Shown here: in pieces, positions 7,624-32,257 of the stretch
Layout: the number at the start of each line of letters is the position of its first letter
How positions within the stretch are numbered: the stretch's first letter is position 1
NCBI GenBank assembly: GCA_023151185.1
Contig: JAKLJL010000002.1
Location: forward strand, 445,058 to 509,057
Direction of reading: 5' to 3'
Source: Bacteroidota bacterium
GTDB lineage: Bacteria > Bacteroidota > JABWAT01
Length of the DNA stretch: 64,000 bases
The notes under the pieces: generated by a model
What the model was told of the DNA's origin: nothing
Database searches by the model: none
The model's input: only the letters and a program-made list of their open reading frames with translations
Position numbers and translations under genes: made by a program

Positions 7624-8532
7624 TTATTTGGGAAGCTTAAATTTAACAGGAACAGTTAACCAGGAAGACACAATATTTCCACCTTGTTTACCTGGCTTAT
7701 ACCTGACATTGAAAATGGCATCCTGAGCAGCCTTATCCAAAGCAGGGTGACAGGATTTCAGAACTTCAATCTGACCAGGGTTTCCATCCCGGTCAATATT
7801 CACCCGGCAAACAAACGAACCTTCGGCCTTTTGAATTATTGCAGCCTCAGGATATTTGATCAGCTTGTAAAGCGCAGCAAAACCGCCTTCAATTTCAGCC
7901 GGGACTTCGGTTACCTCATAAATCATCTGGTCATCCTGATTTGAAATAACTTCCATCTCCTGGGCAGCAGCTTCCTGTGTACCGGTCACCTGGGGTGCCG
8001 GCGCCGCCTCTGAAGGTTTCGCAACCGGCTCAGTTACCGCCTCCGGAATTGCAACGGAAACCTGCTGAGCAGGTGTTTCTACCTGTGAAACAACAGGTGA
8101 TGCTGTAGTTGAAACCGTCTTGACCGCTTCAGTTGGGGCCTTTTGAACCTCAGTCACCACATTATCCGAAACTGCAACCGCTTTGGATCCGCCTTCAGCA
8201 GCCTGTGCAAGCGGAATGTACAGTTTGGTTGTAAAATTCGGATTTACTCTGACCTGCTTGGAGTATTCAGCATAATTTGGCTTTGAAGTCCGGATGGTGT
8301 AAACATCCGGAGAAACATTGACAAAGCTGAAATTACCCCCTGAATTGCTTCTGGCTGAAAGTTTTTGCTGATCTCCCAAATAGAGATAAACAGTAACAAA
8401 GGCTACACCATTATTGGTTGCCTGATCGATGACTTTACCGCTTATTCTACCAAACTGAGCCTGACCCAATAGCGACATTGGAAAAACTACTGCAGAAAAC
8501 AGAAACAAAATAACGGGTTGGTACTGCTTCAT
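7624..8532 (-). CDS. TonB-like protein: carboxypeptidase-regulatory domain fused to TonB C-terminus
   Basis: About 302 residues. The N-terminal hydrophobic segment ([20 protein letters not shown]) looks like a signal peptide or anchor. Residues about 30-100 are a carboxypeptidase-regulatory-like beta-sandwich ([20 protein letters not shown]). A Pro/Glu/Ala-rich spacer (about 110-200) suits crossing the periplasm, and a TonB C-terminal domain (about 220-302) ends in the [13 protein letters not shown] strand. I choose ATG 8532 over GTG 8538 because the AGGA site is 9 bases away rather than 3. It is the last gene of an ExbB-ExbD-ExbD operon and so is the probable energy transducer. A beta-sandwich between anchor and spacer is unusual for TonB. 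Confidence 0.85.
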
Positions 8533-8580
8533 GTCCACATTTCCTTTCCACGACCCATCAGATCAGGCCAGGCAGCAAAA

Positions 8581-9003
8581 TCACATTTCTTTTGGTTTAG
8601 GCTTCGCAGAGTAATTCAGGCGAAGCGCATCAGCATCACGAAGTTTCTGCTGAATGTCGGTAATAATTCCCATTTTCTGATCACGGTCAACCCTGAGAGA
8701 TACAATCAACTGCGGGATATCACTGCGTTTATCAGACATGATAGGAACAATTTTGTCCATGTCGACAATTGCATCATCAATCTGAATCCGTTCATCGGTA
8801 CCTACAAAAATGTAGGACACAAAACGCTTCTTGTCAATTTTTTCAATTGCTTCGGCCTGTGGCAGAACAAACTTGACAAGTAATGTCGTATCCCTCAAAG
8901 TAGTCGTAACCATGAAGAAGAACAAAAGCATGAAGATGATATCCGGCATGGAAGCTGTCGGAATTTCCTGCTTGGTATTTGCTTGTTTTTTCTCAAATTT
9001 CAT
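8581..9003 (-). CDS. exbD: ExbD/TolR family biopolymer transport protein
   Basis: 140 residues: short cytoplasmic start, one transmembrane helix (about 21-43) with the conserved proton-carrying Asp21 (MPDIIFMLLFFFMVTTT), then a periplasmic domain. It acts with ExbB to convert proton flow into movement of a TonB-type protein. It lies downstream of a second exbD (14-base gap) and upstream of the TonB-like gene in the same operon. The two ExbD paralogues are most alike around the membrane helix and differ in their periplasmic parts, suggesting a heteromeric stator. Confidence 0.92.
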   Translation of the reverse strand: MKFEKKQANTKQEIPTASMPDIIFMLLFFFMVTTTLRDTTLLVKFVLPQAEAIEKIDKKRFVSYIFVGTDERIQIDDAIVDMDKIVPIMSDKRSDIPQLIVSLRVDRDQKMGIITDIQQKLRDADALRLNYSAKPKPKEM

Positions 9004-9017
9004 ACAGATACCCCGCG

Positions 9018-9566
9018 TTATTTCGATTTTTCCGGTTCAGCAAAGGAGATCTTCTTTTTGAACTGTTCATCTGTTTCCTTTTTCTGGGAATCAGACAACC
9101 GTTCATAGGCAGTTCCAAAATGCTGGGAGGAATAGGCTTTTCTGAGATCCGAATAACCAAGATTGATCTCATCATACACTTTCAGGAAAATATTGTAGGG
9201 TGTATCCCGGTCAACTTTTACTGAAATCAGAGCTTTTTCTTTTGTTTCTGCAAAATTAGCATCTGCACCATTATTGGTTGTATGCTTTTTCACCAATTCA
9301 CGGATCATGGAAATCGAACTTTCCTCATCGTTAACCAGAACCTGACCTGCGCTGTTGACCAGGATTTTCAGCACGTTCCGTTCCTTGATAGGAGGCGGAG
9401 GAGGTGAATTCGGGTCAACGGGCGGAGGTAAAACCAATCCGATACCGGTATCGACATCGATGGTTGTGGTCACCATGAAGAAAATCAGGAGAAGAAAAGC
9501 GATATCGGCCATTGAAGCACTCGGAATTTCCGGTGTTTCACGTTTTCTTTTTTTCATTAAGGCCAT
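9018..9566 (-). CDS. exbD: ExbD/TolR family biopolymer transport protein
   Basis: 182 residues. The membrane helix (about 21-42) carries Asp21 in MADIAFLLLIFFMVTTT. A Pro-rich stretch (LPPPVDPNSPPPPPIKERN, about 52-70) precedes the periplasmic domain, which is longer than usual and ends in a charged tail (QFKKKISFAEPEKSK). It is the first ExbD of the operon, 39 bases after exbB, with an AGGA ribosome site. It should share the ExbB channel with the next gene's product. Confidence 0.92.
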   Translation of the reverse strand: MALMKKRKRETPEIPSASMADIAFLLLIFFMVTTTIDVDTGIGLVLPPPVDPNSPPPPPIKERNVLKILVNSAGQVLVNDEESSISMIRELVKKHTTNNGADANFAETKEKALISVKVDRDTPYNIFLKVYDEINLGYSDLRKAYSSQHFGTAYERLSDSQKKETDEQFKKKISFAEPEKSK

Positions 9567-9605
9567 TGTGTAATTCCTGATTAATTGATTTTGTAAACCG
9601 GTTTC

Positions 9606-10301
9606 TTAGTTCCCGCTGGCTTTTTTGCCACGCTGAATCAGAACCAGAGAGTCAATCAATTCAACCGAGGATTCTTCCATATCAATGACGATCCGGTCAA
9701 TCTTGGAAACGAAATAATTGTAAAAGGTTTGCAGAATCATTGCGACAACTAGTCCGAAAAGTGTGGTCAAAAGGGCCACAGCAATACCACCTGCAACTAC
9801 TGAAGGGGAAATGTCATTGGCAGCTTTGATGGCATCGAAGGCATCAACCATCCCCTGTACAGTTCCGGTAAAACCTAGCATAGGAGCAAGGGAAATACAG
9901 GTTGAAATCACGATAAGACCTCTTTCAAGGAAGGACATTTCAATCTGTCCATAAGCCACAATGGCTTTTTCAGCAGCATCAATTCCTTCGTCAGCACGGA
10001 GAAGACCGGCCTGAAATACAGAGGCAATCGGACCACGGGTTTTGGCACAGACTTCCTCAGCGGCTTTGACTCCGCCTTCATCCAATGCAGATTTTACTTC
10101 AACAAGAAATTTCCGGGTGTTGATTGAAGCCCGGTTCAGTGTCCATAGTTTGGTGAAAGCAAAGGCCAATCCAACAATAAAACACACGAGGATCGGCCAC
10201 ATGAAAAGACCGCCTTCATTGAATTTGGAAATGAGCCAGTTCATGTCATAAGTAGGTTGGGTTGACAAGTCCTGAAGTAGAACAAGAGTGTTCAGAAGCA
10301 T
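9606..10301 (-). CDS. exbB: ExbB/TolQ/MotA family proton channel protein
   Basis: 231 residues with the three-helix TolQ/ExbB plan: first helix about 33-55 (FMWPILVCFIVGLAFAFTKLW), a cytoplasmic segment, then helices about 133-155 and 170-195 (LAPMLGFTGTVQGMVDAF and VAGGIAVALLTTLFGLVVAM). The GFTGTVQGM motif is the family hallmark in the channel lining. It starts the operon exbB-exbD-exbD-tonB-like, driven by a near-consensus promoter at 10348-10376. The operon is likely to energise outer-membrane receptors such as the one at 15481-17976. Confidence 0.94.
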   Translation of the reverse strand: MLLNTLVLLQDLSTQPTYDMNWLISKFNEGGLFMWPILVCFIVGLAFAFTKLWTLNRASINTRKFLVEVKSALDEGGVKAAEEVCAKTRGPIASVFQAGLLRADEGIDAAEKAIVAYGQIEMSFLERGLIVISTCISLAPMLGFTGTVQGMVDAFDAIKAANDISPSVVAGGIAVALLTTLFGLVVAMILQTFYNYFVSKIDRIVIDMEESSVELIDSLVLIQRGKKASGN

Positions 10302-18014: not shown

Positions 18015-19796
18015 TTATTTTACAGGGTGAAAAGTCGATTTAATATACAACTCACGCATCTGCTTGTCACTAACTTCTGACGGTGCATTGTCCATTAAAC
18101 TCTGCGCATTGGAATTTTTCGGAAAGGCTATCACATCCCGGATGGATTGAGATCCGGTCATGATCATGACAAGCCGGTCAAGACCAAAGGCAATGCCACC
18201 ATGCGGAGGTGCACCAAATTTAAAGGCATCAAGTAAAAATCCGAACTTTTCACGGGCTTCTTCAGCTCCGATCCCAATCAGTTCAAACATTTTACTCTGC
18301 AGTTCAGGGTTATAAATCCGGATGGAGCCACCTGCAATTTCATTCCCGTTCAGCACAAGGTCATAGGCTTTAGCTTTGATGCTGTCATTATCAACGCCCA
18401 TTTTGGCAATATCGTCATTTTGCGGGGAAGTAAACGGGTGATGCATTGCGATATACCGTTTTTCCTCTTCATCCCATTCCAGTAAAGGAAAATCATTAAC
18501 CCAATGGAAACGGAAGGCTGATTCATCAACCAGAGAAAGAGTTTTTCCAAGTTCAAGCCGGAGGTTACCCAGAATTGTTTTGTACTTTGTCCCCTTCCCT
18601 GTAGAAAGGAGAAGCGTATCTCCGTCTGAAAGCCCGAACTGGGAAACAAGTGCATTTTTTGTTTCATCATTGAGGAATTTCACAACAGGTCCGTCAAGCT
18701 GGGCACCCATTCTGAAAAGAATCAACCCGGCCAGGCCTGCCGTTTTATACCGCTCAGCAAGATCATCATAAGTATTCCGGCTGAGAATTGAAGGCGCAGG
18801 AATCCGGATTCCGGAAACCAACTTTCCTTCAGAAACGGCAGAATCAAAAACTTTAAACCCGGTCTCTACCGGCAGACTCACATCCTGAATGACAAGAGGG
18901 TTTCTAAGATCTGGCTTATCCGACCCATACCGGTTAATGGCTTCATCATACGTCATTCTGAGGAACGGGGCCTGAATATCTTTACCCATGATATCCTTGA
19001 ACAGCCTGACAACCAATCCTTCTGCGATTGTTTGAATGTCATTTTGCTCAATAAATGCCATTTCTATATCAATTTGGGTAAATTCCGGCTGCCGGTCAGC
19101 CCGTAGATCTTCATCCCGGAAACATTTTACAATCTGAAAATAACGGTCAAATCCGCTGACCATCAGAATTTGTTTGTAAGTTTGCGGGCTTTGGGGAAGG
19201 GCAAAAAACTTACCGGGGTTTACCCGTGAAGGAACAAGAAAATCCCGTGCACCCTCGGGTGTGGACTTCATCAGAACCGGAGTCTCAACTTCAATAAACT
19301 GATGCCGGTGAAAGTAGTCACGGACTGCATGAGTGATATTGGACCGGAGGATGAGTTTTTCCTGCAGATTCTCACGGCGCAGATCCAAAAACCGGTACTT
19401 TAACCGCAGATCTTCATTAACTTCTTCAGTGCCTTCAATCTGGAACGGGAGGACGGCAGATTGATTGAGGACTGTTAATTCTGTTGCCAGAAGTTCAATT
19501 TCTCCTGTATCCAGATTTGAATTCTTGGAACTTTCGGGACGGAGCCTAACTTTACCGGTAACTGAAATGACCCATTCATTCCGGAGGTTTTTTGCGATTG
19601 AATAAACCTGTTCCTGGGCGGGATCGCAAACTACCTGTGTTTTTCCGTACCGGTCGCGCAGATCCACAAACAACACACCACCATGATCTCTGACCCGGGC
19701 AACCCACCCTGCGAGTTTTACGGTTTTGCCTTCATCAACTTTTCTTAAACTGCCACACGAGACCATACGGAGTGTGGTTTCTAACGTCGGAATCAT
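18015..19796 (-). CDS. aspS: Aspartate--tRNA ligase
   Basis: 593 residues, bacterial-type length. An OB-fold anticodon-binding domain (about 1-115, LAGWVARVRDHGGVLFVDLR) is followed by class II motif 1 (about 160-180), motif 2 (CFRDEDLRADRQPEFTQID), the bacterial GAD insertion (about 290-410) and motif 3 (FGLDRLVMIMTGSQSIRDVI). The ATG at 19796 has CAGGT 4 bases before. Whether it also charges tRNA-Asn cannot be settled here; no gatCAB genes are in view. It lies downstream of the AgmX-type gene but is separated from it by a terminator, so it must have its own promoter within about 70 bases. Confidence 0.97.
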   Translation of the reverse strand: MIPTLETTLRMVSCGSLRKVDEGKTVKLAGWVARVRDHGGVLFVDLRDRYGKTQVVCDPAQEQVYSIAKNLRNEWVISVTGKVRLRPESSKNSNLDTGEIELLATELTVLNQSAVLPFQIEGTEEVNEDLRLKYRFLDLRRENLQEKLILRSNITHAVRDYFHRHQFIEVETPVLMKSTPEGARDFLVPSRVNPGKFFALPQSPQTYKQILMVSGFDRYFQIVKCFRDEDLRADRQPEFTQIDIEMAFIEQNDIQTIAEGLVVRLFKDIMGKDIQAPFLRMTYDEAINRYGSDKPDLRNPLVIQDVSLPVETGFKVFDSAVSEGKLVSGIRIPAPSILSRNTYDDLAERYKTAGLAGLILFRMGAQLDGPVVKFLNDETKNALVSQFGLSDGDTLLLSTGKGTKYKTILGNLRLELGKTLSLVDESAFRFHWVNDFPLLEWDEEEKRYIAMHHPFTSPQNDDIAKMGVDNDSIKAKAYDLVLNGNEIAGGSIRIYNPELQSKMFELIGIGAEEAREKFGFLLDAFKFGAPPHGGIAFGLDRLVMIMTGSQSIRDVIAFPKNSNAQSLMDNAPSEVSDKQMRELYIKSTFHPVK

Positions 19797-19816: not shown

Positions 19817-19846
19817 AAAAACCAGGTTTAATCAAACCTGGTTTTT
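19817..19846 (-). terminator. Intrinsic terminator of the AgmX/TPR/TolQR operon
   Basis: AAAAACCAGGTTT (19817-19829), loop AATC, AAACCTGGTTTTT (19834-19846): a perfect 13-bp stem, with further A residues on the left giving a U-run on the minus strand. It lies 21 bases after the stop of the AgmX-type gene and ends the large cluster. Confidence 0.9.
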
Positions 19847-19867: not shown

Positions 19868-20983
19868 TCAATCAGCGAATACGTAAGGAATATTCAGTAC
19901 CTGAGGCTGAGGATCTGTTACTGAACTGAACTGCCATAGTCTGACTTTATTCAGAATACACCGTTCAACATTCGGATTTTTCATGGTGCTGGAGGCAACC
20001 CGCGGGCCGACAACCTTGCCATCTTTATCAATCCGGAGTTCAATTACAATCTGACCTTTAAGGGATGGATCCTTGACTTTTTCCTGCTCATAGCAAGCCT
20101 GAACGGCGCGTTGATGCTGATCAATGACGCTGGTAAGTTCTTCAACCGACCGGCTTGATGCTCCGGTTGATTTAACCTTACCCGTTGCCAGTGACGCTTT
20201 GATCTTACCACCACGGGCAAGAGCATCACCCACCCCGCTACCGGCACCTAAACCAGTACCTGCGCCAACGGCCCCGAGTTTGGCACCGCCTACACCACCG
20301 CCCCGGCCAATGTCAGCCCGGGAGGTTGCATTTCCAAGTCCCAACCCGGATTGAGCATCCTTACCGGTTGCACCGGCAAGAACAGAACCCAGGTCCGTCG
20401 TTCCGGTTGCACCGCCAAGAACGTCGGCAGCAGATCCGGCAGATGAGGCCCGGCCACCTCTTGACCTACCGGCCAGAGTTGCCAGTACAGCAGATGCCTG
20501 AGCCGCAACCTGTTGCTGATAGGCTTCTTTCGCAGCAGCCGCAGCAGCAGCCCGCTCTTCCTGGAAGGAAGCAGACTGGGTTTCCTCACGGGTTTTACCT
20601 TTGGTAGAAGTTTTTTCGACTACCTCTTCCTTTTTCTCTTCACCGGCAGCATCATTTTTATCTTCTGCAACTTCTGCTTTTTGGATGTCCAATTGAGCAG
20701 ACTGTTTCAGAATTTTATTCATGAACTGCTGTTTTGCAAGGGAGTTCAGGTCTGCCTGGGAAGGAGCCACATAATTGACAAGGGCTATAAACATTCCGCC
20801 ATAGACAACCAGAAAGGTTGCTAACAGAATAGCTGCATACCGCTTATCAATACTTTCCCACAATGTCCTTTTAAACTCATTCGGGAAAGCCAGTTGTTTG
20901 GCCGCCATTACGGCAGTTGCTTTCGGGTTCACTGCACCCATCACAGAAGAATCTGATCCGGTTTGTTTTGTATTTGTTTTCAT
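19868..20983 (-). CDS. AgmX/PglI C-terminal domain protein (TonB-like transducer)
   Basis: 371 residues. A cytoplasmic start of about 48 residues precedes one membrane helix (about 50-70, YAAILLATFLVVYGGMFIALV). A charged coiled region (KAEVAEDKNDAAGEEKKEE) and an Ala-rich segment follow, then a Gly-rich low-complexity stretch (about 170-270). The C-terminal AgmX/PglI-type domain (about 280-371) contains QRAVQACYEQEKVKDPSLKG and RLWQFSSVTDPQPQVLNIP, related in plan to TonB C-termini. The two Cys (in QACYEQ and ERCILN) are typical of the family. In myxobacteria AgmX/PglI (GltJ/GltG) proteins belong to the gliding/sporulation envelope machinery. It is the last gene of the cluster and likely carries the ExbB/ExbD motion across the periplasm. 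Confidence 0.87.
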   Translation of the reverse strand: MKTNTKQTGSDSSVMGAVNPKATAVMAAKQLAFPNEFKRTLWESIDKRYAAILLATFLVVYGGMFIALVNYVAPSQADLNSLAKQQFMNKILKQSAQLDIQKAEVAEDKNDAAGEEKKEEVVEKTSTKGKTREETQSASFQEERAAAAAAAKEAYQQQVAAQASAVLATLAGRSRGGRASSAGSAADVLGGATGTTDLGSVLAGATGKDAQSGLGLGNATSRADIGRGGGVGGAKLGAVGAGTGLGAGSGVGDALARGGKIKASLATGKVKSTGASSRSVEELTSVIDQHQRAVQACYEQEKVKDPSLKGQIVIELRIDKDGKVVGPRVASSTMKNPNVERCILNKVRLWQFSSVTDPQPQVLNIPYVFAD

Positions 20984-21000
20984 GAATCCTTTGCTCCTGC

Positions 21001-21510
21001 TTAATCGCCTTCAACAGTAACCAGTTTAATCTTCACATACCCGGCTTGTGAGGCTGTGTAAACAACCTTTAAAAACGAGGTATAATCAAGACTCCGGTCA
21101 CCCTGAATCAGAATTTCACCTGTAAAAATGGGCTCTCCGTCAGGGCCGTTTCCAAGATCAATCTGTTCCTGGGCTCTGGCGTCGAGTTCATCATACAGTT
21201 TTTGAATCATGAATCCACCTCTGGACGGATCAACCGGTCCAAGAAATTCAGATGCATCAGCAATAAACTGATCATCCAGTACCAACTGTTGGGTCGAAAC
21301 CGCAATGGTTGTTTTCTTTTTGGGTTTATCAAGATTTAAAGATTCAGGCAGTTTCAATCCTTCTGCTTCGGTAACCAGAGCACCGTCTGCGGCGAACTGG
21401 TTCAGAAGAAACAAAAGGATAATTGTCATGGCGTCCATCAGAGATGTCAGTGACACCCCGCCATCAGCGTTTTTCCTGTGACGTTTACCTTTACTTGGTT
21501 GAAAAGCCAT
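21001..21510 (-). CDS. exbD: ExbD/TolR family protein with channel Asp (Asp26)
   Basis: 169 residues. The membrane helix (about 21-42) has LTSLMDAMTIILLFLLNQF, with Asp26 at the proton-carrying position. The periplasmic domain includes KKKTTIAVSTQQLVLDD and GEILIQGDRSLDYTSFLKVV, the usual ExbD ending. It is paired with the paralogue encoded 9 bases upstream, which has Asn at this position, so this is probably the subunit that carries the proton-motive step. It is located between that paralogue and the AgmX-type gene. Confidence 0.9.
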   Translation of the reverse strand: MAFQPSKGKRHRKNADGGVSLTSLMDAMTIILLFLLNQFAADGALVTEAEGLKLPESLNLDKPKKKTTIAVSTQQLVLDDQFIADASEFLGPVDPSRGGFMIQKLYDELDARAQEQIDLGNGPDGEPIFTGEILIQGDRSLDYTSFLKVVYTASQAGYVKIKLVTVEGD

Positions 21511-21519
21511 ATAAACTCC

Positions 21520-22095
21520 TTATAACGTCACACCAAGTGAAATATTGGGGAACAGGATCATTTCCACTTCCTTGTTCTTGTCATATTTCGCTTTGACTTT
21601 GTCCATTGTTCTCACCAATACCTGATAAGGCACATTATTGCCGGCTGTTATCTGGACAGCAGTTTCATCAGTATATCCCTGTCCGGCAATTTCCTTTTTC
21701 ATGGAAATCAGTTTTGCATTTAAGTCCTCGAACGGATAATGTTCTTTATAGCTGCCAAGAACATTCAGATCATAGGCTCCTGGTTTAACAGGAATGGTGG
21801 CATTATCAACCGGTCCCTTTTCGATCCCCCGGATGTTGGATTGAATTGTAAATCCAGCTTCGGTAATCAAAACTTTCAGGTCCAGTTTTTTTGCCTTTTC
21901 AGTGTTTGCAGATGAATTGCCGCCGCCACCGCCTGAATCAGTCGGGAGATTGATTTCAATTGTTCCCATTTTAACAAATTCGGCACAGGATAGCAGAAGC
22001 GGAATCAGGCAAACCATCAGATTCATGATAACGAGCATATCGGGTTCTTTATACTCACTATCTGTCTTTTTCCTTGCGGATGGTTTAAATGCCAT
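21520..22095 (-). CDS. exbD: ExbD/TolR-like protein with Asn at the channel position
   Basis: 191 residues. After a basic start the single membrane helix (about 20-40) reads DMLVIMNLMVCLIPLLLSC. Asn25 occupies the place of the essential Asp of ExbD/TolR; Asp19 lies just before the membrane. A Gly/Ser-rich spacer (about 55-63) leads to a periplasmic ExbD-like domain with YTDETAVQITAGNNVPYQVL. The Pro inside the helix (LIPLLL) is also unlike typical ExbD. It is likely to be a structural partner of the Asp-containing ExbD next door in a mixed ExbB/ExbD stator. A hairpin separates it from the exbB stop. Confidence 0.85.
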   Translation of the reverse strand: MAFKPSARKKTDSEYKEPDMLVIMNLMVCLIPLLLSCAEFVKMGTIEINLPTDSGGGGGNSSANTEKAKKLDLKVLITEAGFTIQSNIRGIEKGPVDNATIPVKPGAYDLNVLGSYKEHYPFEDLNAKLISMKKEIAGQGYTDETAVQITAGNNVPYQVLVRTMDKVKAKYDKNKEVEMILFPNISLGVTL

Positions 22096-22132
22096 TGTTA
22101 GTCCTCAACTTGATTCTGGTTATTGTACAACT

Positions 22133-22156
22133 AGGTTACAGGAAAGTTCCTAACCT
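22133..22156 (-). other. Intercistronic hairpin between exbB and the Asn-type exbD
   Basis: AGGTT-(AC)-AGGAA, loop AG, TTCCT-AACCT: two 5-bp stem segments with a 2-base bulge, starting at the exbB stop. There is no U-run, so it is more likely a processing or stability element than a terminator. It could help set the ExbB:ExbD ratio. Confidence 0.45.
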
Positions 22157-22869
22157 CAGTTGACGACAGGACGGTAACCGGTCAGCAGGTTGATCAATTT
22201 TACAGTATGCTCATCGATTTCATCAATGATTTTCTGGGTACGGGCCTGAATAATCACCAAAAGAACAGTTAACGGAATGGCAGAGAAAAGACCCATCATG
22301 GTTGTACCCATGGCAGCAGAGATACCATTTGCAAGGAACTGGGATTTTTGGGCAGCAGGAATACCGGTACCACCCACAGCACCAAAGGCGATGATCAGAC
22401 CAAAGATCGTTCCGGCAAGACCCAGCAGGGTAGAAGCAGAAGCAATCATGGTCAGGTAGCCGGTTCTGTTGGTCAGACGGGGAATAACTTCCAGAGTGGC
22501 CTCGTCAACGGCATTTTGAATGTCACGAAAATCCTTTGAGGTATCGGCACGTTTCAGGCCTTTGAGTACGATGTAAGGAAGAGCTTTTTCTTTCGATTGC
22601 TCGGCAAGGGCAATGGCTTCTTTGATATTGTTGGATGCAACAAACTGACGGATTCTTTCCATGAATTTATCAGCATTGATATTGGAACGGATTACGATGT
22701 AGTAGAAACGTTCAATCACAATGGCAATACCAATAATCATGAAGGTCAGAATTGCCCACTGAAACCAGGCAGAAACGTCACCTTTTACCAATGCGCCTGA
22801 AGAATCGACGTGATCCCAGAATTTGAAAGAGTTGATGAAGGAATTAAGAAAAAGATCCATCGTATCCAT
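22156..22869 (-). CDS. exbB: ExbB/TolQ/MotA family proton channel protein
   Basis: 237 residues. Helix 1 (about 32-54, WFQWAILTFMIIGIAIVIERFYYI), a cytoplasmic segment, helix 2 (about 138-165) with ASTLLGLAGTIFGLIIAFGAV, and helix 3 (about 182-212, LANGISAAMGTTMMGLFSAIP). The LAGTIFGLI motif is the family hallmark. A GGGAG ribosome site precedes the ATG. Its immediate partners are two unlike ExbD proteins and an AgmX-type protein, not a classical TonB. This is the composition of AglR-AglQ-AglS-type stators. It has an 89-base leader region of its own but probably also receives transcription from the TPR genes upstream. Confidence 0.93.
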   Translation of the reverse strand: MDTMDLFLNSFINSFKFWDHVDSSGALVKGDVSAWFQWAILTFMIIGIAIVIERFYYIVIRSNINADKFMERIRQFVASNNIKEAIALAEQSKEKALPYIVLKGLKRADTSKDFRDIQNAVDEATLEVIPRLTNRTGYLTMIASASTLLGLAGTIFGLIIAFGAVGGTGIPAAQKSQFLANGISAAMGTTMMGLFSAIPLTVLLVIIQARTQKIIDEIDEHTVKLINLLTGYRPVVN

Positions 22870-22958
22870 TTGGTAGTCTCCCTTTGTTGTGTTCTTTAGA
22901 TTAAACGGTTGAAACGGTCGTAAAGTTAAATGAACAATTCTCTAAAAACAAGATAGAT

Positions 22959-23276
22959 TTAGTTCCGGTTTTTATTAATTACCTTTTCCGGTTCGATCAG
23001 TGTTGGAAACTCACTGTCCTTCCGGATGTAGAAATCAAGTTTGGGCCTGTCCTTTGTCTGCTGGTTCAGTGATTCAACCGAATTACTGACCTGACTGAAA
23101 TCAGGTTTCATGCGTTCCGGAAGCAGGTTGATTGTGGGTCTGCGGATTCTTGCCCGGATCAGAGTGGTTTTAATTGTGATCACATTACCGCCACCGCCAC
23201 CAGCATCCTGGGCCAGAAGTTCATCATGGACCAGCAGAATTAGAAAACAAACTGCAATCAGTTTTAACGGGTTCAT
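22959..23276 (-). CDS. Small exported protein of the TPR/TolQR cluster, unknown function
   Basis: 105 residues. A signal peptide (MNPLKLIAVCFLILLVHDELLAQ) is followed by a Gly-rich hinge and about 80 mature residues with no recognised fold (KPDFSQVSNSVESLNQQTKD, then KLDFYIRKDSEFPTLIEPEK). The ATG follows directly after the TAA of the 1764-residue TPR gene, with GGAGG inside that gene's end, so translation is coupled. It is likely to be a periplasmic adaptor of the same machine. I do not recognise the family. Confidence 0.7.
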   Translation of the reverse strand: MNPLKLIAVCFLILLVHDELLAQDAGGGGGNVITIKTTLIRARIRRPTINLLPERMKPDFSQVSNSVESLNQQTKDRPKLDFYIRKDSEFPTLIEPEKVINKNRN

Positions 23277-26200
23277 TTATTGTCCTCCATCCTGAGGTTT
23301 ATCTCCTGAGGGTGCCTCTGTCTTGGGCGGGTCAACCGGTTTCTCCTCGGTTTTCTGGGTTTTCACACCCGGAAGCTGGTACTTGGAAGAAAAGATCCGG
23401 AGAATTTTCTCTGAAGGAATTTCCGGATAGTACACCACATTCACCAGTGAATACAGATTTTTATTGTAGCTGCCTTCGGCGTTGGTCTTTACAGCAAGCA
23501 GATTTTTCCCGTTGACCAGAATTTTGGAAACATCGAAGACAATCGCCTTTCCGTCGGGTGTATCCTTGCCGATCGAAACATCCAGTTGATTGTCATTCAG
23601 ATAGACTTCAGAAGCAATGTTCTTACCTACAATCAAAGAACCATTGTCAATGGTTCCGTCCACAAAGAACGTTTTCCGGAAAACAACCTGGTCAGGAGTT
23701 TTTCCTGCACTTCCCTGATCTGGTTTTTCAGTTGCCCGGTTGCTGTAATCGAATCTGTCGGATGCCACTTTCACGGCAGGTGCCGTTGCCTGAACTTCAG
23801 GCTGAGGAATCACTGAAGGGGTTTGTTTTACTGAATCGGCTGGCTGTGCAACGACAGTTGCACTTGTATCTGAAGACGCAGAAGCTGAAACTGCTGAAGA
23901 ATCCGAAACTGGAGCGGTAATTGTCTCTACGGTCGTTTCGGCAGGTACAGTATCCGTTTGCTTGCTGGAATCTGCAACAATATCCGTATCATTTACAGTT
24001 ATGAAAAAATACGGAGTGTTTTTCACGCCGGCAGAATCAACTGCTGAGGAATTTTCATCAGGCGAGTAATACCAGACAGGTGTGATACTTGAGGACTTCG
24101 GTCCAGAAAGGTTATCTGTATAATCCACAACCAGTTTGCTTGCAGAATAGGCAATTTCTGCCTGATTCCAGACGGTATCATTTAACGATTGGGTGTACCA
24201 GTCATCGCCGGTATCAGTTGAAGCCTTCCAGGTGTCATCCGTCTGATAGACAAGGCTTGATCTGAGGTCAATATCACCGAGCAGGCTTCCGTATTTTTGC
24301 GGATCAACGGTAATCAGCTTGGTAATAATCTTACCTGTCCATTCAGTATAGACCCCGTAGGAAGTCATGAACCCAATTCCATTCTCAAGGATCTCCATAC
24401 CGGTAGCCTTCAGAATATTGGTAATATCATCAAGCGTGTAGGTTGCATCAAGATACCAATACAGTTCAGGTTTTGAAATGGAGATCTGATCGTACCGTTT
24501 CCGGGTCTGCTGAAGCGAATTACCCCGTTCCAGTTCAACGGTACCGACAGAATACAGAAACTGAGTTGTTCTGTTTTCTACCTGGAGACGAAGGTCTTTG
24601 CCCAGATTATTGGCATCCACAATTTTAAGAGCATTTGCATACTCATTTATGGTTGTCCCAACGTAGATTTTTGAATTTTCTACCGAGGTCGTGATCACTG
24701 TTTGTTTGTTGATGATTGCATCAGAAGCAGGCTCAACATCGGTTTCGACAACTTTTGCAAATTCCTCGAGGTTATGATCAAATGCCTCGATGGAGTAACG
24801 AACCAGTTCTTCATACTTGCTGGCTTTCAGATCAGACAAATCAGTAATGGCCTGCCTGGACTTCTGAACCCAGTCATTTTCTATTTTCAGCTCTGCAGAG
24901 AGGTCCATATTTTTACGGTAAAGTGCAATGGCATCTTCAACGTCTGCCGAAATGTTATCAATAAGACCTGCCCAAACCTGCATATAAAGGTTGGGATCGG
25001 TGATACTGGAAAGGATCGATTTATCTTCAATGATAATATTCACAATTTTATGCTGGGCCTCAGCGGCATGATACAGCATCTCGGATGTTTTGGTTGCCGT
25101 AATTGAATCCAGCCTTGCCATCAGTTTCAGGGTAGAATCCGGGATTGAAACATCATTGGTCTTGATTGAATCGAGATTCTGTTCGAGTAATTTATTGATG
25201 GCTTTCTGGAAATCACGGATCTGATTGAATGTCTGAAGGTAGATCTGGTAGCCATTGTTGTAATAATCTTTGGCTGTATAGTGGACCTCGGTCTGTTTGG
25301 TAATAAAATCCTGACCTCTGAATCCGCCGTCCTCTGCATTCCGGGAACCAGCCTGATCTGCAATTTCCTCGTAGGCCTTTCCAATATTGAAAGTTGCCTC
25401 AATGGCCCGGTAGAAACTACCGCCGGGCTCAAGTCCCAGGCTCCTTAACTCGACCTGATTGTCCCGGTACGTTTTGAAAGCAGTCTCTTTTCTGGGTATT
25501 TCGGTATCCCCATTGTTAAAATTAATGGTAACCGCAGAGAAAGAATCCCACAATTCTTTTCCAAGTTCATACAAAGATTCACCTGCAAAGAAAGGACTTG
25601 ACTGTTTTGCTTTTTTCTTTAATTCCCTGTTCCGGTCGACAGCAGCCCGGTATTCAATAAGTGCTCCAGGCCGGTCATTTTGTTTTGCCAGGTAAAGGGC
25701 CCTTCTGTAAAAGGCTTCAACAGTCCGGAAGTCATCCGGGAATTTTGCTGCAAACTTCCCATACGCTTCAAAAACGCCTTTATCATCCTTCATATCAGTC
25801 TGAAGTGCGATAGTTCCGAACAGGACCTCGGTTGCATAGGGGCTGTCCGGGAATTTCTCAACATACAATTCAGACAGGCGGAAGGCTTCCTTCAGATCTT
25901 TTGCCTTTTTGCTGTCCTCAAAAGCCTTGTAGAGATAATATTCTGAAAGCTCAGCGTTATTATTTTTTGCAAAATAATAGTAATTCCGCTCTGCCTGTTT
26001 GCTGGAGAGCGAAAAAGCCTTCATTTCAATGAGGTTGGAATAAATATTCCGGTGTGCATTTTCAACCAGTTTGGTCGAATTGGGAAAGCGGTCAATCAAC
26101 TGATTGTACAATTCATTTGACCGGTTAAACTCTTTTTCCTTATCGTAGTTTTCTGCAGCAAAATAAATGGCCTGATCTACATCCTTGTAGCCGGGTGTAT

Positions 26201-28571
26201 CAGTGTAAATCCGGTACCATTGCTCGGCTGCTGCACTGAAATTACCCCTGCCTTCTTCAATCTGAGCCATAAGACCGATACTGGTTGACCAAATCAGGGT
26301 AGCATAGTCTTTTTGTTTGGCCGAGGCATCTTTCATGGTAATAATTGCTTTAGCCAAAAGCTCAGCCGAGGGGTAATCCTTAACCCGGAAGTACCCCTGC
26401 ATCAGATCAGTCACATATCCAGGGTTAATTTTCCGGTCAGGGTAATACTTTTGAAGGATCACCTGCCAGTCGGCGACCTGATCGAGCTGATTCTTGTTGA
26501 AATAAATCAGCGAAATATTTTCAACATACTCAGATGTTTTGGCAACATGGGGAAAAAGCCGGGCAAAATTATCATAGGCTTCGATCAGTCTTTTCTCGGA
26601 CCCTGTCAGGGAAAGAGTATCCACATAAGCCAGAAACTTCAGGTCTTTCAGAAGGGAATCTGCCACAAGTGCACGGGCTCTGGGTAAGGCAGAAAGGGTA
26701 ACCTTTGGTGTGGTTTTTTCTGATTTATTCAGGTCATCTACAGCGATTGAAATGGCGTTGAGAGCTGTTTCAAAGCGATGATGCTCTGCAAAGGGGTTTC
26801 TGGCAACTTCCAGATAATAGGGGTAAGCTTCAAGAGAACGCCCAACTTTCTGGTCAAGCACCAGAGCAAGGTAATACCCGTTCTCATAGGCAACCGAGTC
26901 GTACCGGGAATAATAGTCGAAATAGGTTTTTACATCCCCGATATACCGGTCATAAAATCCGGTGGCCCGGCCTGCATCCGAAGTTAATCCTTCCCGCTGT
27001 TCATCTCCGGCAAAAACAAGTGCATAGAACAGGTCCATGTTCATGTTGTCGATGAAGTATTTCTGGGAAGTAGAGTCAATTGCAGTAAACATACCGGGTT
27101 CAATATACCGTTTTACAATTCCTTTTGAACTGTAATCAGCATTTGGGGAATTTTGGGCATTAAACCGGGCTAACTGAGCAGAATACCATGGCGAACGGTA
27201 GTTGTAAGTCTGGAAGTACTCTTTTTTTAGTTTGTAAACTTCTTCGCGCAGTTCAAGCTCTTTCAGTCCCTTTTCGCCACCGATTTCCCGTTCTTTGATT
27301 TCTACAAGTTCACGGGCAAGATCTCCTGACCGCTCGGATTCAGGATATCGTTTTACCAAATAGGCGTAAATGTGCTGAATTTCCTTAATATCATCCACCT
27401 CACCATACGACTGTCCAAGCCGTTCATAAACAAAAGGTTCATAGGTTTTCGGCGGATTGAACCGGGAAAAATAACTGACCATTTTATCCAGTACTGCTCC
27501 AGTTGCCGGGCTGTCTGACCGTTTGGAATATTCCCGCTTCACGATATCCATGAAACAGATTCCAATGTACTGAGCAGATTCCTCAAACATTTCAGGACGG
27601 ACAAAGGATGGAAGTTGCTTTCCGTCATACATTTCCTTGTTGGACTGAATGTCATCCATCAGGAAGGTGAAGTAGGCAATAGCATCCGAAAAATCGCGGA
27701 GCTTATAACTGACCCAGGCAAGCCGGTACAAGGACTCGCCGAATCTTCTGGTCGGGTAGTCAGCAGCAGCACTTAACTCAAGTACCTTCTGGAAATGGCT
27801 TCTTGCCCGTCTCAGTTTGGCATCATCCGGAGAGTTAAAAAGGAATTCCCCGATCAGCCAGTTTGACTCCAGAACATAACGGGATGACGGGTACTTTCTG
27901 GTCAGGATTTCGAGTGTTTTCACTCCAAGTTCAACATTTCCTTCTTCCCAGCCATAAATATAGGCCTTTGAATACAGGGCATCCGGCACGTATTTGCTGT
28001 CCGGCATTTCATTGATAACATAATCGTAGAGGCCGATAACCTTCTGAAAGTCCTTTATCGCCGGTTTTGGCTCTTCGGGTTTTTCCGAAATTTCCTTCTT
28101 TTCATACTGGTCCAGCTTTTTAACGTAGGCGTCCAGTTTAACGTAATAAACAGCCTGGTCCTCATAATATTTTTTCAGAACTTTTTGATACTGGATCTCA
28201 GCCTGACGCATCAGAATTTCATCCAGAACCGCAGACTTTTTGAATATGGAGATAAACCTTTCATTGTTTTCATCCAGTAATTCAGAGAGTCTCTTTTCTT
28301 CGTCCTGGCTCAGTTTGATTTTTTCCTGAGTTTTTTTCAGGATCAGTTCGACCTGTGAAATTGAGAATTTGTCGAAAATCCGGTCGGTGGAGGGATCATT
28401 TGTTCTGGTTTTCAGGATATCCTGATCAACCGGTTTAATTACAATATGCCGCCCTTTTACAATCGAGGAATCCTGCCCGAAGGTACCAGACGGATTGATC
28501 AGGGTTATAAAGGAAAAACCAGAAACCAGCAACAGACGGGTCATAAAATCAGCCATTATCATTTTTTTCAT
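23277..28571 (-). CDS. Giant exported TPR protein with C-terminal jelly-roll-like domain
   Basis: 1764 residues. A hydrophobic signal (about 10-32, ending near TFGQD) precedes a coiled-coil start (SQVELILKKTQEKIKLSQDE). Long stretches of TPR-type repeats fill about 150-1130, including DYVINEMPDSKYVPDALYSK and LYNQLIDRFPNSTKLVENAH. A helical region follows, then two pieces that look like halves of a galactose-binding jelly roll: DDTWKASTDTGDDWYTQSLN near 1442-1475 and VVFRKTFFVDGTIDNGSLIV near 1625-1715. They are separated by a Ser/Thr/Pro/Ala-rich linker. It is the second gene of the cluster, 6 bases after the 825-residue TPR gene. I infer a periplasmic or outer-membrane scaffold of an Agl-Glt-like machine. 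Confidence 0.85.
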   Translation of the reverse strand: MKKMIMADFMTRLLLVSGFSFITLINPSGTFGQDSSIVKGRHIVIKPVDQDILKTRTNDPSTDRIFDKFSISQVELILKKTQEKIKLSQDEEKRLSELLDENNERFISIFKKSAVLDEILMRQAEIQYQKVLKKYYEDQAVYYVKLDAYVKKLDQYEKKEISEKPEEPKPAIKDFQKVIGLYDYVINEMPDSKYVPDALYSKAYIYGWEEGNVELGVKTLEILTRKYPSSRYVLESNWLIGEFLFNSPDDAKLRRARSHFQKVLELSAAADYPTRRFGESLYRLAWVSYKLRDFSDAIAYFTFLMDDIQSNKEMYDGKQLPSFVRPEMFEESAQYIGICFMDIVKREYSKRSDSPATGAVLDKMVSYFSRFNPPKTYEPFVYERLGQSYGEVDDIKEIQHIYAYLVKRYPESERSGDLARELVEIKEREIGGEKGLKELELREEVYKLKKEYFQTYNYRSPWYSAQLARFNAQNSPNADYSSKGIVKRYIEPGMFTAIDSTSQKYFIDNMNMDLFYALVFAGDEQREGLTSDAGRATGFYDRYIGDVKTYFDYYSRYDSVAYENGYYLALVLDQKVGRSLEAYPYYLEVARNPFAEHHRFETALNAISIAVDDLNKSEKTTPKVTLSALPRARALVADSLLKDLKFLAYVDTLSLTGSEKRLIEAYDNFARLFPHVAKTSEYVENISLIYFNKNQLDQVADWQVILQKYYPDRKINPGYVTDLMQGYFRVKDYPSAELLAKAIITMKDASAKQKDYATLIWSTSIGLMAQIEEGRGNFSAAAEQWYRIYTDTPGYKDVDQAIYFAAENYDKEKEFNRSNELYNQLIDRFPNSTKLVENAHRNIYSNLIEMKAFSLSSKQAERNYYYFAKNNNAELSEYYLYKAFEDSKKAKDLKEAFRLSELYVEKFPDSPYATEVLFGTIALQTDMKDDKGVFEAYGKFAAKFPDDFRTVEAFYRRALYLAKQNDRPGALIEYRAAVDRNRELKKKAKQSSPFFAGESLYELGKELWDSFSAVTINFNNGDTEIPRKETAFKTYRDNQVELRSLGLEPGGSFYRAIEATFNIGKAYEEIADQAGSRNAEDGGFRGQDFITKQTEVHYTAKDYYNNGYQIYLQTFNQIRDFQKAINKLLEQNLDSIKTNDVSIPDSTLKLMARLDSITATKTSEMLYHAAEAQHKIVNIIIEDKSILSSITDPNLYMQVWAGLIDNISADVEDAIALYRKNMDLSAELKIENDWVQKSRQAITDLSDLKASKYEELVRYSIEAFDHNLEEFAKVVETDVEPASDAIINKQTVITTSVENSKIYVGTTINEYANALKIVDANNLGKDLRLQVENRTTQFLYSVGTVELERGNSLQQTRKRYDQISISKPELYWYLDATYTLDDITNILKATGMEILENGIGFMTSYGVYTEWTGKIITKLITVDPQKYGSLLGDIDLRSSLVYQTDDTWKASTDTGDDWYTQSLNDTVWNQAEIAYSASKLVVDYTDNLSGPKSSSITPVWYYSPDENSSAVDSAGVKNTPYFFITVNDTDIVADSSKQTDTVPAETTVETITAPVSDSSAVSASASSDTSATVVAQPADSVKQTPSVIPQPEVQATAPAVKVASDRFDYSNRATEKPDQGSAGKTPDQVVFRKTFFVDGTIDNGSLIVGKNIASEVYLNDNQLDVSIGKDTPDGKAIVFDVSKILVNGKNLLAVKTNAEGSYNKNLYSLVNVVYYPEIPSEKILRIFSSKYQLPGVKTQKTEEKPVDPPKTEAPSGDKPQDGGQ

Positions 28572-28577
28572 CCTGGA

Positions 28578-31055
28578 CTACCCCTTTTTCCCTGATGATT
28601 TCGGTTTCTCTTTACTTTTTCCTGCAGGTTTCTTTGTTTCCGGCTTTGTTGCCGGAACCGGAGCAGCAGGGGGTGCCTGAACCTGTTCTTCCTGTTTTTT
28701 ATTCAGTTTATCCAGTTCTTCTTTAGGAATTGGCCTGACAGTGATCGGGTCAAAATATACACTGCGGTAGTCAGTTAATTTTAATCTGAAATCACGGTTT
28801 ACTGAATCAATCCGGTTAACGAACGCCTTCTGAGCTTCAATTTTTGAAAGATCAGCCATGTATTTCTCGAACTGATCTTTTTTCTCGCTGATCGCATTTT
28901 TAAGGGCAGACCTGATTTTCAGATTGTCCTGATTTTCGTTGATCCGTCTTTCGTATTCCTGATACAGAAGTGAACTGATCCCAAATGCGGAAGCATCACC
29001 CCAGCGTTCAATTTCAGTTTTCTGTCTGTAGAAGTCTCTTTCAAAAAGAGAAACTTCAAGGGAGTTATATCTAACCCGGATGTCATCCACAACAATACCC
29101 ATGTAAATCAGGACGTCTTTTTTACCCGGGTCTGCATTTTGTGAAACTGCAGAAGTAATCTGATTATACAAAGAAGTAATCTGCTTGTACTCTTTAGCTG
29201 CGATATCTCTGAAAGTTGAATAGGAGTTCATTCTTCCGTTGTCAGAGGCTCTGATCAGCAGCGGCGCATGCTGGGCGAACAGAATAATGTCGCGGCCAAC
29301 CGGATCGGCAGCAACCTTTTCAGTGATTGATTTCAGGGCAAGAACTGTACTGTCTGCGCATAAAACCAACTCCCTCAGGCCTTTTGTCCTGACTGCAGCT
29401 TTCTGTTTTTCAATGGCAGCGAGATCAGTTTTGAGGTCTTCGATCACATTGTCATCGAAGAGTTTGTTATCTTTTCTGAACTGAATTTTACCGGAAATCC
29501 CCAGTTTTCCTGCTACTGAACTGATCGACTCGGTCAGAGACTGAGCAGCAGAAAGGCTGGCTGCAGGCAGACTTCTTGAATCAATGTAATCTTCAGCAGT
29601 GAACAATTGTCTTGAAATCTGGTTTCTGCTTTCAAAAAAGTCAGAAAGAAACTGGTTCGCAATCATCCCGTTGATGACGTAATTGTAGGCGGATTCAGAT
29701 TGCTTGATTGAACCCGGGTTTTTCTTCTGGCGAATGTACCCTTCAAGAAAGACTGCCTGATACATCAATTCCTGATTGGTAACCGAATTAATGTAGTTTT
29801 GAACTTTGATCAGAGCCGTATTATAGTCTGAATTCTGAAGGTCAATCCAGGTTTCGGCAAGGACAGCACTAGAATATTCGGGGTGGTTTTTCTGAACCTT
29901 ATCGAAATAGTCTTTCCCCGTTGCAAAGTAAGATTTAGGCGTAATTACAATTCTTTTGCCATCAGCACCTTCAAGCACTTCGTCGGGCAATCCTTCCCGG
30001 ATCATTTTCACACCCTTGATATAGTGCAGGTACCCAAGCTGAAGAAAAGCAGATGTCTTGATTTTTTTAAGCGGTGCCGGGTCCCATGGCCACAGGGTAA
30101 CCCGTTCTATCCTCTGATAAGCCCTGATTCCATTTTCAAGATCATCCAGGTTGACATAGCTGTTACCGATAATATAGTTCGCCAGCAGGTATCCTGAATA
30201 GGAGGAAGGAATCGGTTCAAGCAGGCTGATTGCCTTTCTGAAATCCTCACGCTGATGCTGAACCACTGCAAGAAGCATCTGGATATTATAGTAAACGGCA
30301 TCCTGAGTGTTGACGTAATTTTTGAGTTTTTCCCATTCAAGCAGCAGTTCTTCCGGTTTCCCGTAGACATAATTGATAAAGAGGATTTTGTAAATGGAAA
30401 GATTGGTGTACGAGGAAGTTCCGCTGTATTTCTGAATAACAGTCCGGTAGTCATCGATAGCCTTGTTATAGGCCTTCAGGGCAAAAAGGCATTCAGCACG
30501 GGCAAAGGTAACATCATCGAGCTGGTTGTAAACAGATTTATATTCCTCCAGAATATCAGTCAGGGCAATATTGGCAATCCGGAACGATCCGCTGTTATAC
30601 TGCTCAAGTGCCATGAGAAAGCGGTTCTGGAACAGGCTGGTTGCAAATTTCTGGGAGGCACCGGTCAGAAGGATTTCTTTAAATTTCCGGAGTTCACGAA
30701 GCTGATTTTCGGTTTCGGCAAAGTCTTTGAACTGATCGTACAGTTCCTGACTGTCAAAAGTAAACAACCTGCCCTTCCCGGCACCCTTAACTGCATAATC
30801 CTCCATGTTGATTTTTTCAAACACCAGAGACTGGTAAGCCTGACGGTTAAAAGACGGGTCGTCACTGATCCTTGAACGGAGTTCGTCGTAGATAACTTTG
30901 GAGTAGTCAGCAATGTAGGACTGGCGGGCCAGAATGAGGTTAAAGTGGTAGACCGGCGGATTTTTGTAATTCCCTTCCAAAACATTCTGAATAGACTGTC
31001 CTTCAACAGCTAAAGAAGTAAAGAAGAAGAATACCAGGAACTTTATTTTTTTCAT
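28578..31055 (-). CDS. Large exported TPR/coiled-coil protein, first gene of the TolQR cluster
   Basis: 825 residues from ATG 31055, where a clear signal peptide begins (MKKIKFLVFFFFTSLAVEGQ). The frame stays open to 31100 but the extra 15 residues would bury the signal. TPR-like repeats run from about 140 to 450 (ALEQYNSGSFRIANIALTDI, then FALKAYNKAIDDYRTVIQKY). A helical region follows, with a coiled-coil (about 690-770) and a Pro/Lys-rich tail (APPAAPVPATKPETKKPAGK). Such proteins in TolQ/TolR clusters (AglT/GltE-like) reach between peptidoglycan and outer membrane. The match to those is by arrangement and TPR content, not by a diagnostic motif. Confidence 0.8.
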   Translation of the reverse strand: MKKIKFLVFFFFTSLAVEGQSIQNVLEGNYKNPPVYHFNLILARQSYIADYSKVIYDELRSRISDDPSFNRQAYQSLVFEKINMEDYAVKGAGKGRLFTFDSQELYDQFKDFAETENQLRELRKFKEILLTGASQKFATSLFQNRFLMALEQYNSGSFRIANIALTDILEEYKSVYNQLDDVTFARAECLFALKAYNKAIDDYRTVIQKYSGTSSYTNLSIYKILFINYVYGKPEELLLEWEKLKNYVNTQDAVYYNIQMLLAVVQHQREDFRKAISLLEPIPSSYSGYLLANYIIGNSYVNLDDLENGIRAYQRIERVTLWPWDPAPLKKIKTSAFLQLGYLHYIKGVKMIREGLPDEVLEGADGKRIVITPKSYFATGKDYFDKVQKNHPEYSSAVLAETWIDLQNSDYNTALIKVQNYINSVTNQELMYQAVFLEGYIRQKKNPGSIKQSESAYNYVINGMIANQFLSDFFESRNQISRQLFTAEDYIDSRSLPAASLSAAQSLTESISSVAGKLGISGKIQFRKDNKLFDDNVIEDLKTDLAAIEKQKAAVRTKGLRELVLCADSTVLALKSITEKVAADPVGRDIILFAQHAPLLIRASDNGRMNSYSTFRDIAAKEYKQITSLYNQITSAVSQNADPGKKDVLIYMGIVVDDIRVRYNSLEVSLFERDFYRQKTEIERWGDASAFGISSLLYQEYERRINENQDNLKIRSALKNAISEKKDQFEKYMADLSKIEAQKAFVNRIDSVNRDFRLKLTDYRSVYFDPITVRPIPKEELDKLNKKQEEQVQAPPAAPVPATKPETKKPAGKSKEKPKSSGKKG

Positions 31056-31108
31056 CGAAATCCCAAAAATACGACACCTGTAACAATGCTTTTTATGCAT
31101 ATTGTGTA

Positions 31109-31277: not shown

Positions 31278-31297
31278 AAGCCGGGATTTCCCGGCTT
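31278..31297 (-). terminator. Intrinsic terminator of the dnaE-trxA-trxB unit
   Basis: AAGCCGGGA (31278-31286), 2 bases, TCCCGGCTT (31289-31297). The A-rich left flank gives CTTTTCTTTTTT on the minus strand. It lies 30 bases after the trxB stop. Confidence 0.85.
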
Positions 31298-31327: not shown

Positions 31328-32257
31328 TCAGTTTCGTTCATGCTCCAGAAAGCGGTAGGCTTCAAGAGCTGCCATACTTCCGGTTCCTGCGGCTGTAATC
31401 GCCTGCCGGTATACCGGATCCTGAACATCACCGGCAGCAAAAACCCCGGGGATATTCGTATGCAGGTTCCGGTCAGTTACAATATAGCCATGATCGTCAA
31501 GTGTCAGAACTCCCCTGAAGAGGTCAGTGTTGGGAATATGCCCTATGAAAACAAACAAACCGTCGGCAGTGAGGGTAGATTCAGCACCGGAAATCAGGTT
31601 TTTCAGCTTTACTCCGGTGAAACCACCCGGATTGTGAAGAACCTCCTCAACAACCGAGTTCCAGACAACTTCAATCTTGTCGTTGTTTAAAACCCGGTTC
31701 TGAAGTATCGGGCTGCCACGAAACTTCTCCCGGCGGTGTATCAGGGTTAGTTTGCTGACAAACCGGGTCAGGTACAGACTTTCATCAAGTGCAGAATCAC
31801 CGCCACCTACAACCAGGGCATGTTTGCCCCTGTAGAAGAAGGCATCGCAGGTAGCGCAGGTCGAAACTCCCTTACCAATACTCTCCGTTTCACCCGGTAC
31901 ACCCAGCATTCTGGATCCGGACCCGGTACTGACAATGACTGTTTCTGCAAGATACTCGTCACCGGCTGTTGTTTTAAGATAAAAAGGTCTTTCAGAAAAG
32001 TTGATAGACTCTACTTTATCATAAACGGTTTCAGTCCCGAATTTTACCGATTGCTTTTCCAGTTTTTCTGCAAGTTCCAACCCGCCGATCCCCTCCGGAA
32101 ACCCGGGAAAATTTTCAAGATCATTGGTAAGGGTGATCTGACCGCCCGGCTGGGTTCCAAGGAATAAAACCGTCGACAGATTGGCCCTTGAGGCATAAAT
32201 GGCAGCGGTGTAACCAGCCGGACCGCCGCCGATAATTCCGACATCAATCTTTTTCAT
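31328..32257 (-). CDS. trxB: Thioredoxin-disulfide reductase
   Basis: 309 residues. It has an N-terminal FAD-binding motif (IIGGGPAGYTAAIYASRA), the redox-active CATC at about 136-139 followed by DAFFYRGK, an NADPH-binding motif (VVGGGDSALDESLYLTRF) and the C-terminal FAD motif (GVFAAGDVQD). It reduces thioredoxin with NADPH. It lies 7 bases after trxA, so reductase and substrate are made together; dnaE is upstream in the same direction. All key residues are present. Confidence 0.97.
   Translation of the reverse strand: MKKIDVGIIGGGPAGYTAAIYASRANLSTVLFLGTQPGGQITLTNDLENFPGFPEGIGGLELAEKLEKQSVKFGTETVYDKVESINFSERPFYLKTTAGDEYLAETVIVSTGSGSRMLGVPGETESIGKGVSTCATCDAFFYRGKHALVVGGGDSALDESLYLTRFVSKLTLIHRREKFRGSPILQNRVLNNDKIEVVWNSVVEEVLHNPGGFTGVKLKNLISGAESTLTADGLFVFIGHIPNTDLFRGVLTLDDHGYIVTDRNLHTNIPGVFAAGDVQDPVYRQAITAAGTGSMAALEAYRFLEHERN

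Follow-up and report, generated by a model that had tools for sequence, protein, structure and literature searches.

A Bacteroidota operon probably encoding a proton-driven, envelope-spanning member of the Agl-Glt core-complex family

What does a bacterium that carries a TonB-type ExbB-ExbD set do with a second ExbB/TolQ motor encoded beside two very large envelope proteins? The question is raised by seven co-directional open reading frames (ORFs) that run from 31055 to 19868, on the minus strand, of a 64-kb stretch of a Bacteroidota genome (GCA_023151185.1, contig JAKLJL010000002.1, forward-strand positions 445,058 to 509,057), referred to here as the window. An earlier note on this DNA had described a one-direction operon of seven genes with the composition of the Myxococcus Agl-Glt and Nfs machineries, and all seven ORFs were recovered. 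They very probably encode a member of the Agl-Glt core-complex family, a trans-envelope machine driven by protons, with the following parts:

28578–31055, minus strand: TPRA, exported tetratricopeptide-repeat (TPR)/coiled-coil protein, putatively GltC-like, 825 amino acids (aa) (ORF, TPR_6, profile-profile comparison)
23277–28571, minus strand: TPRB, exported protein, 1764 aa (ORF, TPR_6, profile-profile comparison, AlphaFold/Foldseek)
22959–23276, minus strand: SML, small protein of 105 aa, exported (match to the small gene preceding AglR in Myxococcota core loci)
22156–22869, minus strand: ExbB/TolQ family protein, AglR-type (MotA_ExbB, tree)
21520–22095, minus strand: ExbD1, ExbD-type, its membrane helix carrying Asn25 (ExbD family match, alignment)
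21001–21510, minus strand: ExbD2, ExbD-type, its membrane helix carrying Asp26 (ExbD family match, alignment)
19868–20983, minus strand: GltG/AgmX-type transducer with one membrane helix and an AgmX/PglI C-terminal domain, no FHA (NF033768, profile-profile comparison)

In Pfam and NCBIfam searches, the operon proteins matched MotA_ExbB (1e-21) and ExbD (1e-10 and 6e-11), the two large proteins matched TPR_6 (1e-9 and 9e-7) and the transducer matched the AgmX/PglI C-terminal domain (NF033768, 9e-24, 83 bits against a cut-off of 40). Sequence searches of the PDB returned mostly TolQ/ExbB for ExbB and no matches for the transducer. Profile-profile comparisons were made between families from the Fibrobacteres-Chlorobi-Bacteroidetes (FCB) group and Myxococcota core loci, the M. 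xanthus proteins themselves not being among the comparands. TPRB aligned to the protein at the GltD position over 826 columns (1.9e-57, compared with 1.4e-6 and 3.9e-7 for the GltC- and GltE-position controls), and this likeness spans its first ∼1060 residues. TPRA fits best at the GltC position (2.4e-18, compared with 2.2e-11 and 7.6e-10 for controls at other TPR positions); since TPR proteins resemble one another, this is a weaker assignment than that of TPRB as GltD-like, and the curated GltC model did not match window TPRA. SML matched the small gene of the Myxococcota core loci (3.2e-7), and the transducer matched GltG (1.9e-25). The Myxococcota locus L030 itself matches the curated models of GltC (9.6e-18) and GltE (2.7e-23). 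The GltG model aligns to the window transducer only from position 324 onward, and an N-terminal extension of ∼150 residues is present on the transducer in the Myxococcota rows only of the alignment.

The ExbB sequences place the motor in the same family. In a tree of 37 sequences, which did not include M. xanthus AglR and drew a program warning of long branches between its two sides, the core ExbBs, those of the Myxococcota and Bdellovibrionota loci included, fall into a single clade (100/99). The other ExbB of the window lies outside this clade, as do the motors of Chlorobia and the ExbBs from an unrelated TPR operon. The ExbB of the machine operon groups with Calditrichota (92/87), and that of a close relative (L011) is 97% identical to it.

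The Group B core complex consists of gltC, gltD, gltE, gltG, aglR, aglQ, aglS and an additional gene (Luciano et al. 2011, PMC3169522). In that survey it was present in Proteobacteria and Fibrobacter but not conserved in Bacteroidetes, and its function outside Myxococcus was given as unknown. Judged by sequence, the window machine is very probably this already described complex, now in Bacteroidota: an AglR-type ExbB, two ExbDs, a GltG-type transducer, a GltD-like and a putatively GltC-like TPR protein and a small extra gene are likewise found in a single cluster. The motor and core transducer components are also those that the Myxococcus Agl-Glt gliding and Agl-Nfs sporulation machines have in common (PMC3858216). 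The window machine differs in its Bacteroidota host and in its GltD-like protein, which carries ∼700 extra C-terminal residues, including a sugar-binding-type sandwich. The Agl-Glt/Nfs composition put forward in the earlier note is thus backed by the profile-profile matches, the ExbB clade and synteny across phyla; the note had not made the link to the Group B complex of PMC3169522, and it had missed the type IX secretion system (T9SS) and GldL/GldM context considered below.

Synteny was assessed in a scan of relatives that took one genome per species and gave 23 loci. The order TPRA-TPRB-SML-ExbB-ExbD-ExbD-AgmX is kept in Bacteroidota and in loci of the Calditrichota/Zixibacteria/LCP-89 type. 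In the Myxococcota loci this order is extended by one TPR gene (GltE), placed ahead of the small gene, and the Fibrobacterota loci keep the motor half (small gene, ExbB, ExbB-ExbD fusion, ExbD and AgmX). Separation of the genes in relatives, named beforehand as grounds for abandoning the Agl-Glt comparison, was looked for and not found, the order being conserved in several phyla.

Within the motor, the two ExbD proteins are unlike. A membrane Asp occurs in ExbD2 of 21/21 relatives, whereas ExbD1 carries a membrane Asn in 18/19, the exception being a Bdellovibrionota locus with Asp, and the ExbD1/ExbD2 pairs correspond between phyla, their order being kept. A D28N substitution in Myxococcus AglQ abolishes proton conductance and motility (PMC3858216). 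Known motors are 5:2 assemblies, and whether AglQ and AglS form heterodimers is stated as not known (PMC9389320). By analogy with these motors, the Asn/Asp pattern points to an axle that holds a single proton site, presumably at similar stoichiometry. The helix of the window transducer has no His, a residue present in the Myxococcota and LCP-89 rows and reported to be essential for motor interaction in TolA/TonB (PMC12204202).

To define where in Bacteroidota the machine occurs, 395 genomes were searched with the GltD-like profile. The GltG model was not used because, over whole genomes, it also matches numerous other proteins of AgmX or FHA type, and a phylum survey with an ExbD1 profile misses Chlorobia in which the motor has been exchanged. 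Near-full-length TPRB is confined to the window family and some Chlorobia, and in this phylum the machine was found only there, which is new. In Chloroherpeton thalassium the order is dnaE-trxA-trxB-TPRA-ExbB-ExbD-ExbD-AgmX-TPRB-small; in this species and its relatives, a TonB-type ExbB and two Asp-bearing ExbDs lie between TPRA and AgmX (L044, L090–L097). The Chlorobia version is the same set of envelope parts with a different motor. The Asn/Asp pair kept across phyla and its Asp/Asp replacement in Chlorobia make a natural experiment that asks if such a motor requires one proton site or two. C. thalassium glides and Chlorobiaceae are non-motile (PMC9318685). TPRB was detected in 0/86 genomes of the Chlorobia family f8, which we infer to be the non-motile Chlorobiaceae, compared with 11/12 genomes from other Chlorobia families, the single miss being an 81% complete genome.

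The architecture of TPRB gives an indication of what the machine may hold. Residues 1–1064 form the GltD-like TPR region and are followed by helices and a split beta-sandwich of sugar-binding type. An AlphaFold model of residues 1045–1764 (12 sequences, mean pLDDT, the predicted local distance difference test score, of 74) showed long helices and then a beta-sandwich interrupted by a disordered insert of ∼120 residues, in line with the jelly-roll-like part previously claimed for this protein. Foldseek matched the sandwich to accessory domains of glycoside hydrolase family 2 (GH2) enzymes and rhamnosidases with a probability of 1.00 but an E-value of about 1e-3, and weak Pfam matches in several TPRB family members agree with this result. 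Such accessory domains can be structural in GH2 enzymes and rhamnosidases, and sugar binding by the predicted sandwich is a suggestion only. For TPRA, AlphaFold produced a generic TPR/coiled-coil model of moderate confidence.

We propose that the motor drives the GltG/AgmX transducer. The C-terminal domain of the transducer would extend into the periplasm and pull on the GltC- and GltD-like TPR proteins and the small exported protein; the terminal sandwich of the GltD-like protein would keep hold of a glycan or an outer-membrane partner. In this reconstruction of force path, cargo and phenotype, the output would be the moving or anchoring of outer-membrane or cell-surface components (surface adhesion, possibly gliding), perhaps including components delivered by type IX secretion. 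We put such a function at roughly an even chance. It is consistent with the Myxococcus Agl-Glt and Agl-Nfs machines, which move surface complexes (PMC3858216, PMC3169522), and with the Chlorobia, in which the gliding Chloroherpeton carries the machine and all sampled f8 genomes lack TPRB. Neither GldL nor GldM was detected in the window family, where SprA is present, or in any core-positive genome tested, which also fits. In Fibrobacter succinogenes, FSU_2396–FSU_2403 encode OmpA, TPR proteins of 83.8 and 146.7 kDa, ExbB, ExbD, ExbD and TonB; these proteins rise on cellulose, and OmpA and the TPR proteins have been proposed as parts of surface adhesion complexes (PMC6851124, PMC4619616). From the annotated order, the sizes and the 2011 report, we infer that this cluster is equivalent to the window machine: it has two large TPR proteins and the same TPR, TPR, ExbB, ExbD, ExbD, TonB-family order. 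It differs in being led by an OmpA gene, of which there is none in the window operon, and in its published reading, cellodextrin uptake plus adhesion.

Several points weigh against a role in moving or anchoring surface components. Compared to the described core complex, the window set lacks a separate GltE, there being no third TPR gene in the operon where L030–L033 have one, and its GltG-type transducer gave no match to an FHA domain. None of the Group A genes for gliding (gltA,B,F,H,I,J,K), CglB or MglA is present at the locus, a genome-wide search not having been made. Motility has not been demonstrated in F. succinogenes (PMC3079729), so that adhesion or surface handling is favoured over gliding as the common role, and the equivalence of the F. 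succinogenes cluster rests on annotation and order. The window lineage is uncultured. The contrast within Chlorobia may reflect a single event of loss or gain, and SprA is likewise missing in the sampled f8 genomes.

Alternatively, the machine could be the power unit of type IX secretion in FCB lineages without GldL/GldM, its TPR proteins linking the motor to the SprA translocon in a manner comparable to PorW, which connects the PorK/N ring with Sov. We regard this as rather unlikely. SprA was found in 20/20 core-positive FCB genomes tested, GldL and GldM exceeded the cut-off in no member of the window family and in no core-positive genome tested, and sampled f8 Chlorobia lack both SprA and the core. 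Fibrobacter, moreover, secretes cellulases via T9SS (PMC6851124). The GldL and GldM models mark exactly the same 14 Bacteroidota genomes, none of them core-positive, and among 63 SprA-positive genomes tested for both proteins, 13 carried GldL/GldM only, 20 the core only, 30 neither and 0 both. The 30 genomes with neither indicate that another solution exists or that the models miss distant GldL/GldM; together with the phylogenetic clustering, they leave replacement of GldL/GldM by the core short of proof. In addition, SprA is absent from five core-positive Myxococcota and Bdellovibrionota genomes, it is encoded elsewhere in the window genome, and the correlation tracks deep phylogeny. The GldL-GldM (PorL-PorM) pair is also a proton-driven trans-envelope motor of this phylum, but its protein families are unlike those of the window machine, and none was detected in the window genome. 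A broader, tentative and somewhat doubtful proposal is that in FCB bacteria lacking GldL/GldM, Agl-Glt-core machines, some with an exchanged TonB-type motor, move type IX-secreted adhesins or power secretion. If true, the power-source reading would explain gliding in Chloroherpeton and tie Myxococcus and Bacteroidota gliding together. A core complex in Bacteroidota and in a cultured glider with another motor raises the question of how gliding is powered in green sulfur bacteria; a core beside SprA without detectable GldL/GldM raises that of what powers type IX secretion where these are missing. The interest lies in the new distribution, the motor swap and direct testability, and not in a wholly new kind of system.

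It is improbable that the machine serves Tol-Pal-like maintenance, pulling the outer membrane toward peptidoglycan at division or stress. In the window genome (3.74 Mb, 97.7% complete) just two ExbB/TolQ loci were detected at E<=1, the machine operon and a TonB-type set at 7624–10301, with no separate TolQ seen; the TPR regions resemble YbgF/CpoB, and aspS, trxB and dnaE are housekeeping neighbours. Against this, the operon has no TolB or Pal (the rest of the genome was not searched for them), Myxococcus has a bona fide Tol-Pal system alongside Agl-Glt (PMC3169522), and the machine was not found in sampled Bacteroidota outside the window family and part of Chlorobia, so that it is dispensable there. 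Still less probable, and in our view very much so, is uptake of the TonB type, in which large substrates (oligosaccharides, for example) would enter through receptors in the outer membrane, a role put forward for the Fibrobacter cluster. ExbB/ExbD/TonB-like parts, the sugar-binding-type domain of TPRB and the cellulose induction in Fibrobacter (PMC6851124) would fit. However, the AgmX domain scores 13 bits with Pfam TonB_C, below the cut-off of 24.6, while the second set passes, the transducer helix has no His of the kind reported as essential for motor binding in TolA/TonB (PMC12204202), the operon contains no receptor, and the genome has another set of TonB type. The separate set at 7624–10301, claimed before as a conventional ExbB-ExbD-ExbD-TonB set, is indeed present, but its 'TonB' (7624–8538) is not quite conventional: it may be exported rather than membrane-anchored, since a signal-peptide-like N-terminus and a carboxypeptidase-regulatory-like domain precede TonB_C. 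Clusters with a vWA transducer (PMC12204202) resemble the window operon in having a TPR gene, one TolQ-like gene, two unlike TolR-like genes and a transducer; the transducer C-terminus is vWA there and an AgmX/PglI domain in the window, where no Pfam/NCBIfam match to a vWA fold was obtained.

The operon is delimited by the following features, of which the neighbouring genes are context outside the machine:

31328–32257, minus strand: trxB, upstream neighbour, common to Chlorobia loci
31278–31297, minus strand: terminator-like hairpin and T tract between trxB and the operon
19817–19846, minus strand: terminator-like hairpin of 13 pairs and T tract, just 3' of the transducer gene
18015–19796, minus strand: aspS, downstream neighbour, common to Calditrichota-type loci

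The second hairpin corresponds to the terminator reported earlier at the operon end, in a window whose overall hairpin number is no higher than in shuffles. For TPRA, the inner ATG gives 825 aa and a possible upstream ATG at 31100 gives 840 aa. Since trxB upstream is common to Chlorobia and aspS downstream to Calditrichota-type loci, the neighbourhood argues for old, mostly vertical inheritance, and recent horizontal transfer is less likely.

Two sets of weak matches from the distribution searches were rejected. The sole weak ExbD1 match outside the window family (G143) belongs to an ordinary ExbB-ExbD-ExbD-TonB set, and weak GltD-profile matches in f7, f30, f32 and f45 are to a different TPR protein of ∼1000 aa. 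The loci L098–L102 of these families, and L103 of f17, contain a different operon, encoding the ∼1000-aa TPR protein, an exported protein of ∼530 aa and a TonB-like protein; four of the L098–L103 loci also have ExbB, mostly with a single ExbD. These operons are possibly further envelope motors, in lineages that are, where sampled, SprA-positive without GldL/GldM. In the window genome, SprA, the T9SS translocon, is encoded at G000:C2:31781-38434 (L104), with no detectable GldL or GldM.

Variations on the conserved order were also seen. In Chitinivibrionales (L025:10730-12046, L028:10718-12025), the position of the Asn-type ExbD is taken by an ExbB-ExbD fusion that adjoins a second, separate ExbB. 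An extra conserved gene of ∼124 aa lies between the small gene and ExbB in a metagenome-assembled genome (L017:9586-9960) and in an LCP-89 locus (L019:9586-9957). In L014, L015 and L020, adjacent to the core operon, aspS is followed on its 3' side by a small lipoprotein-like gene and a gene for an exported protein of ∼280 aa with a LysM-like C-terminus (e.g. L014:15114-16271).

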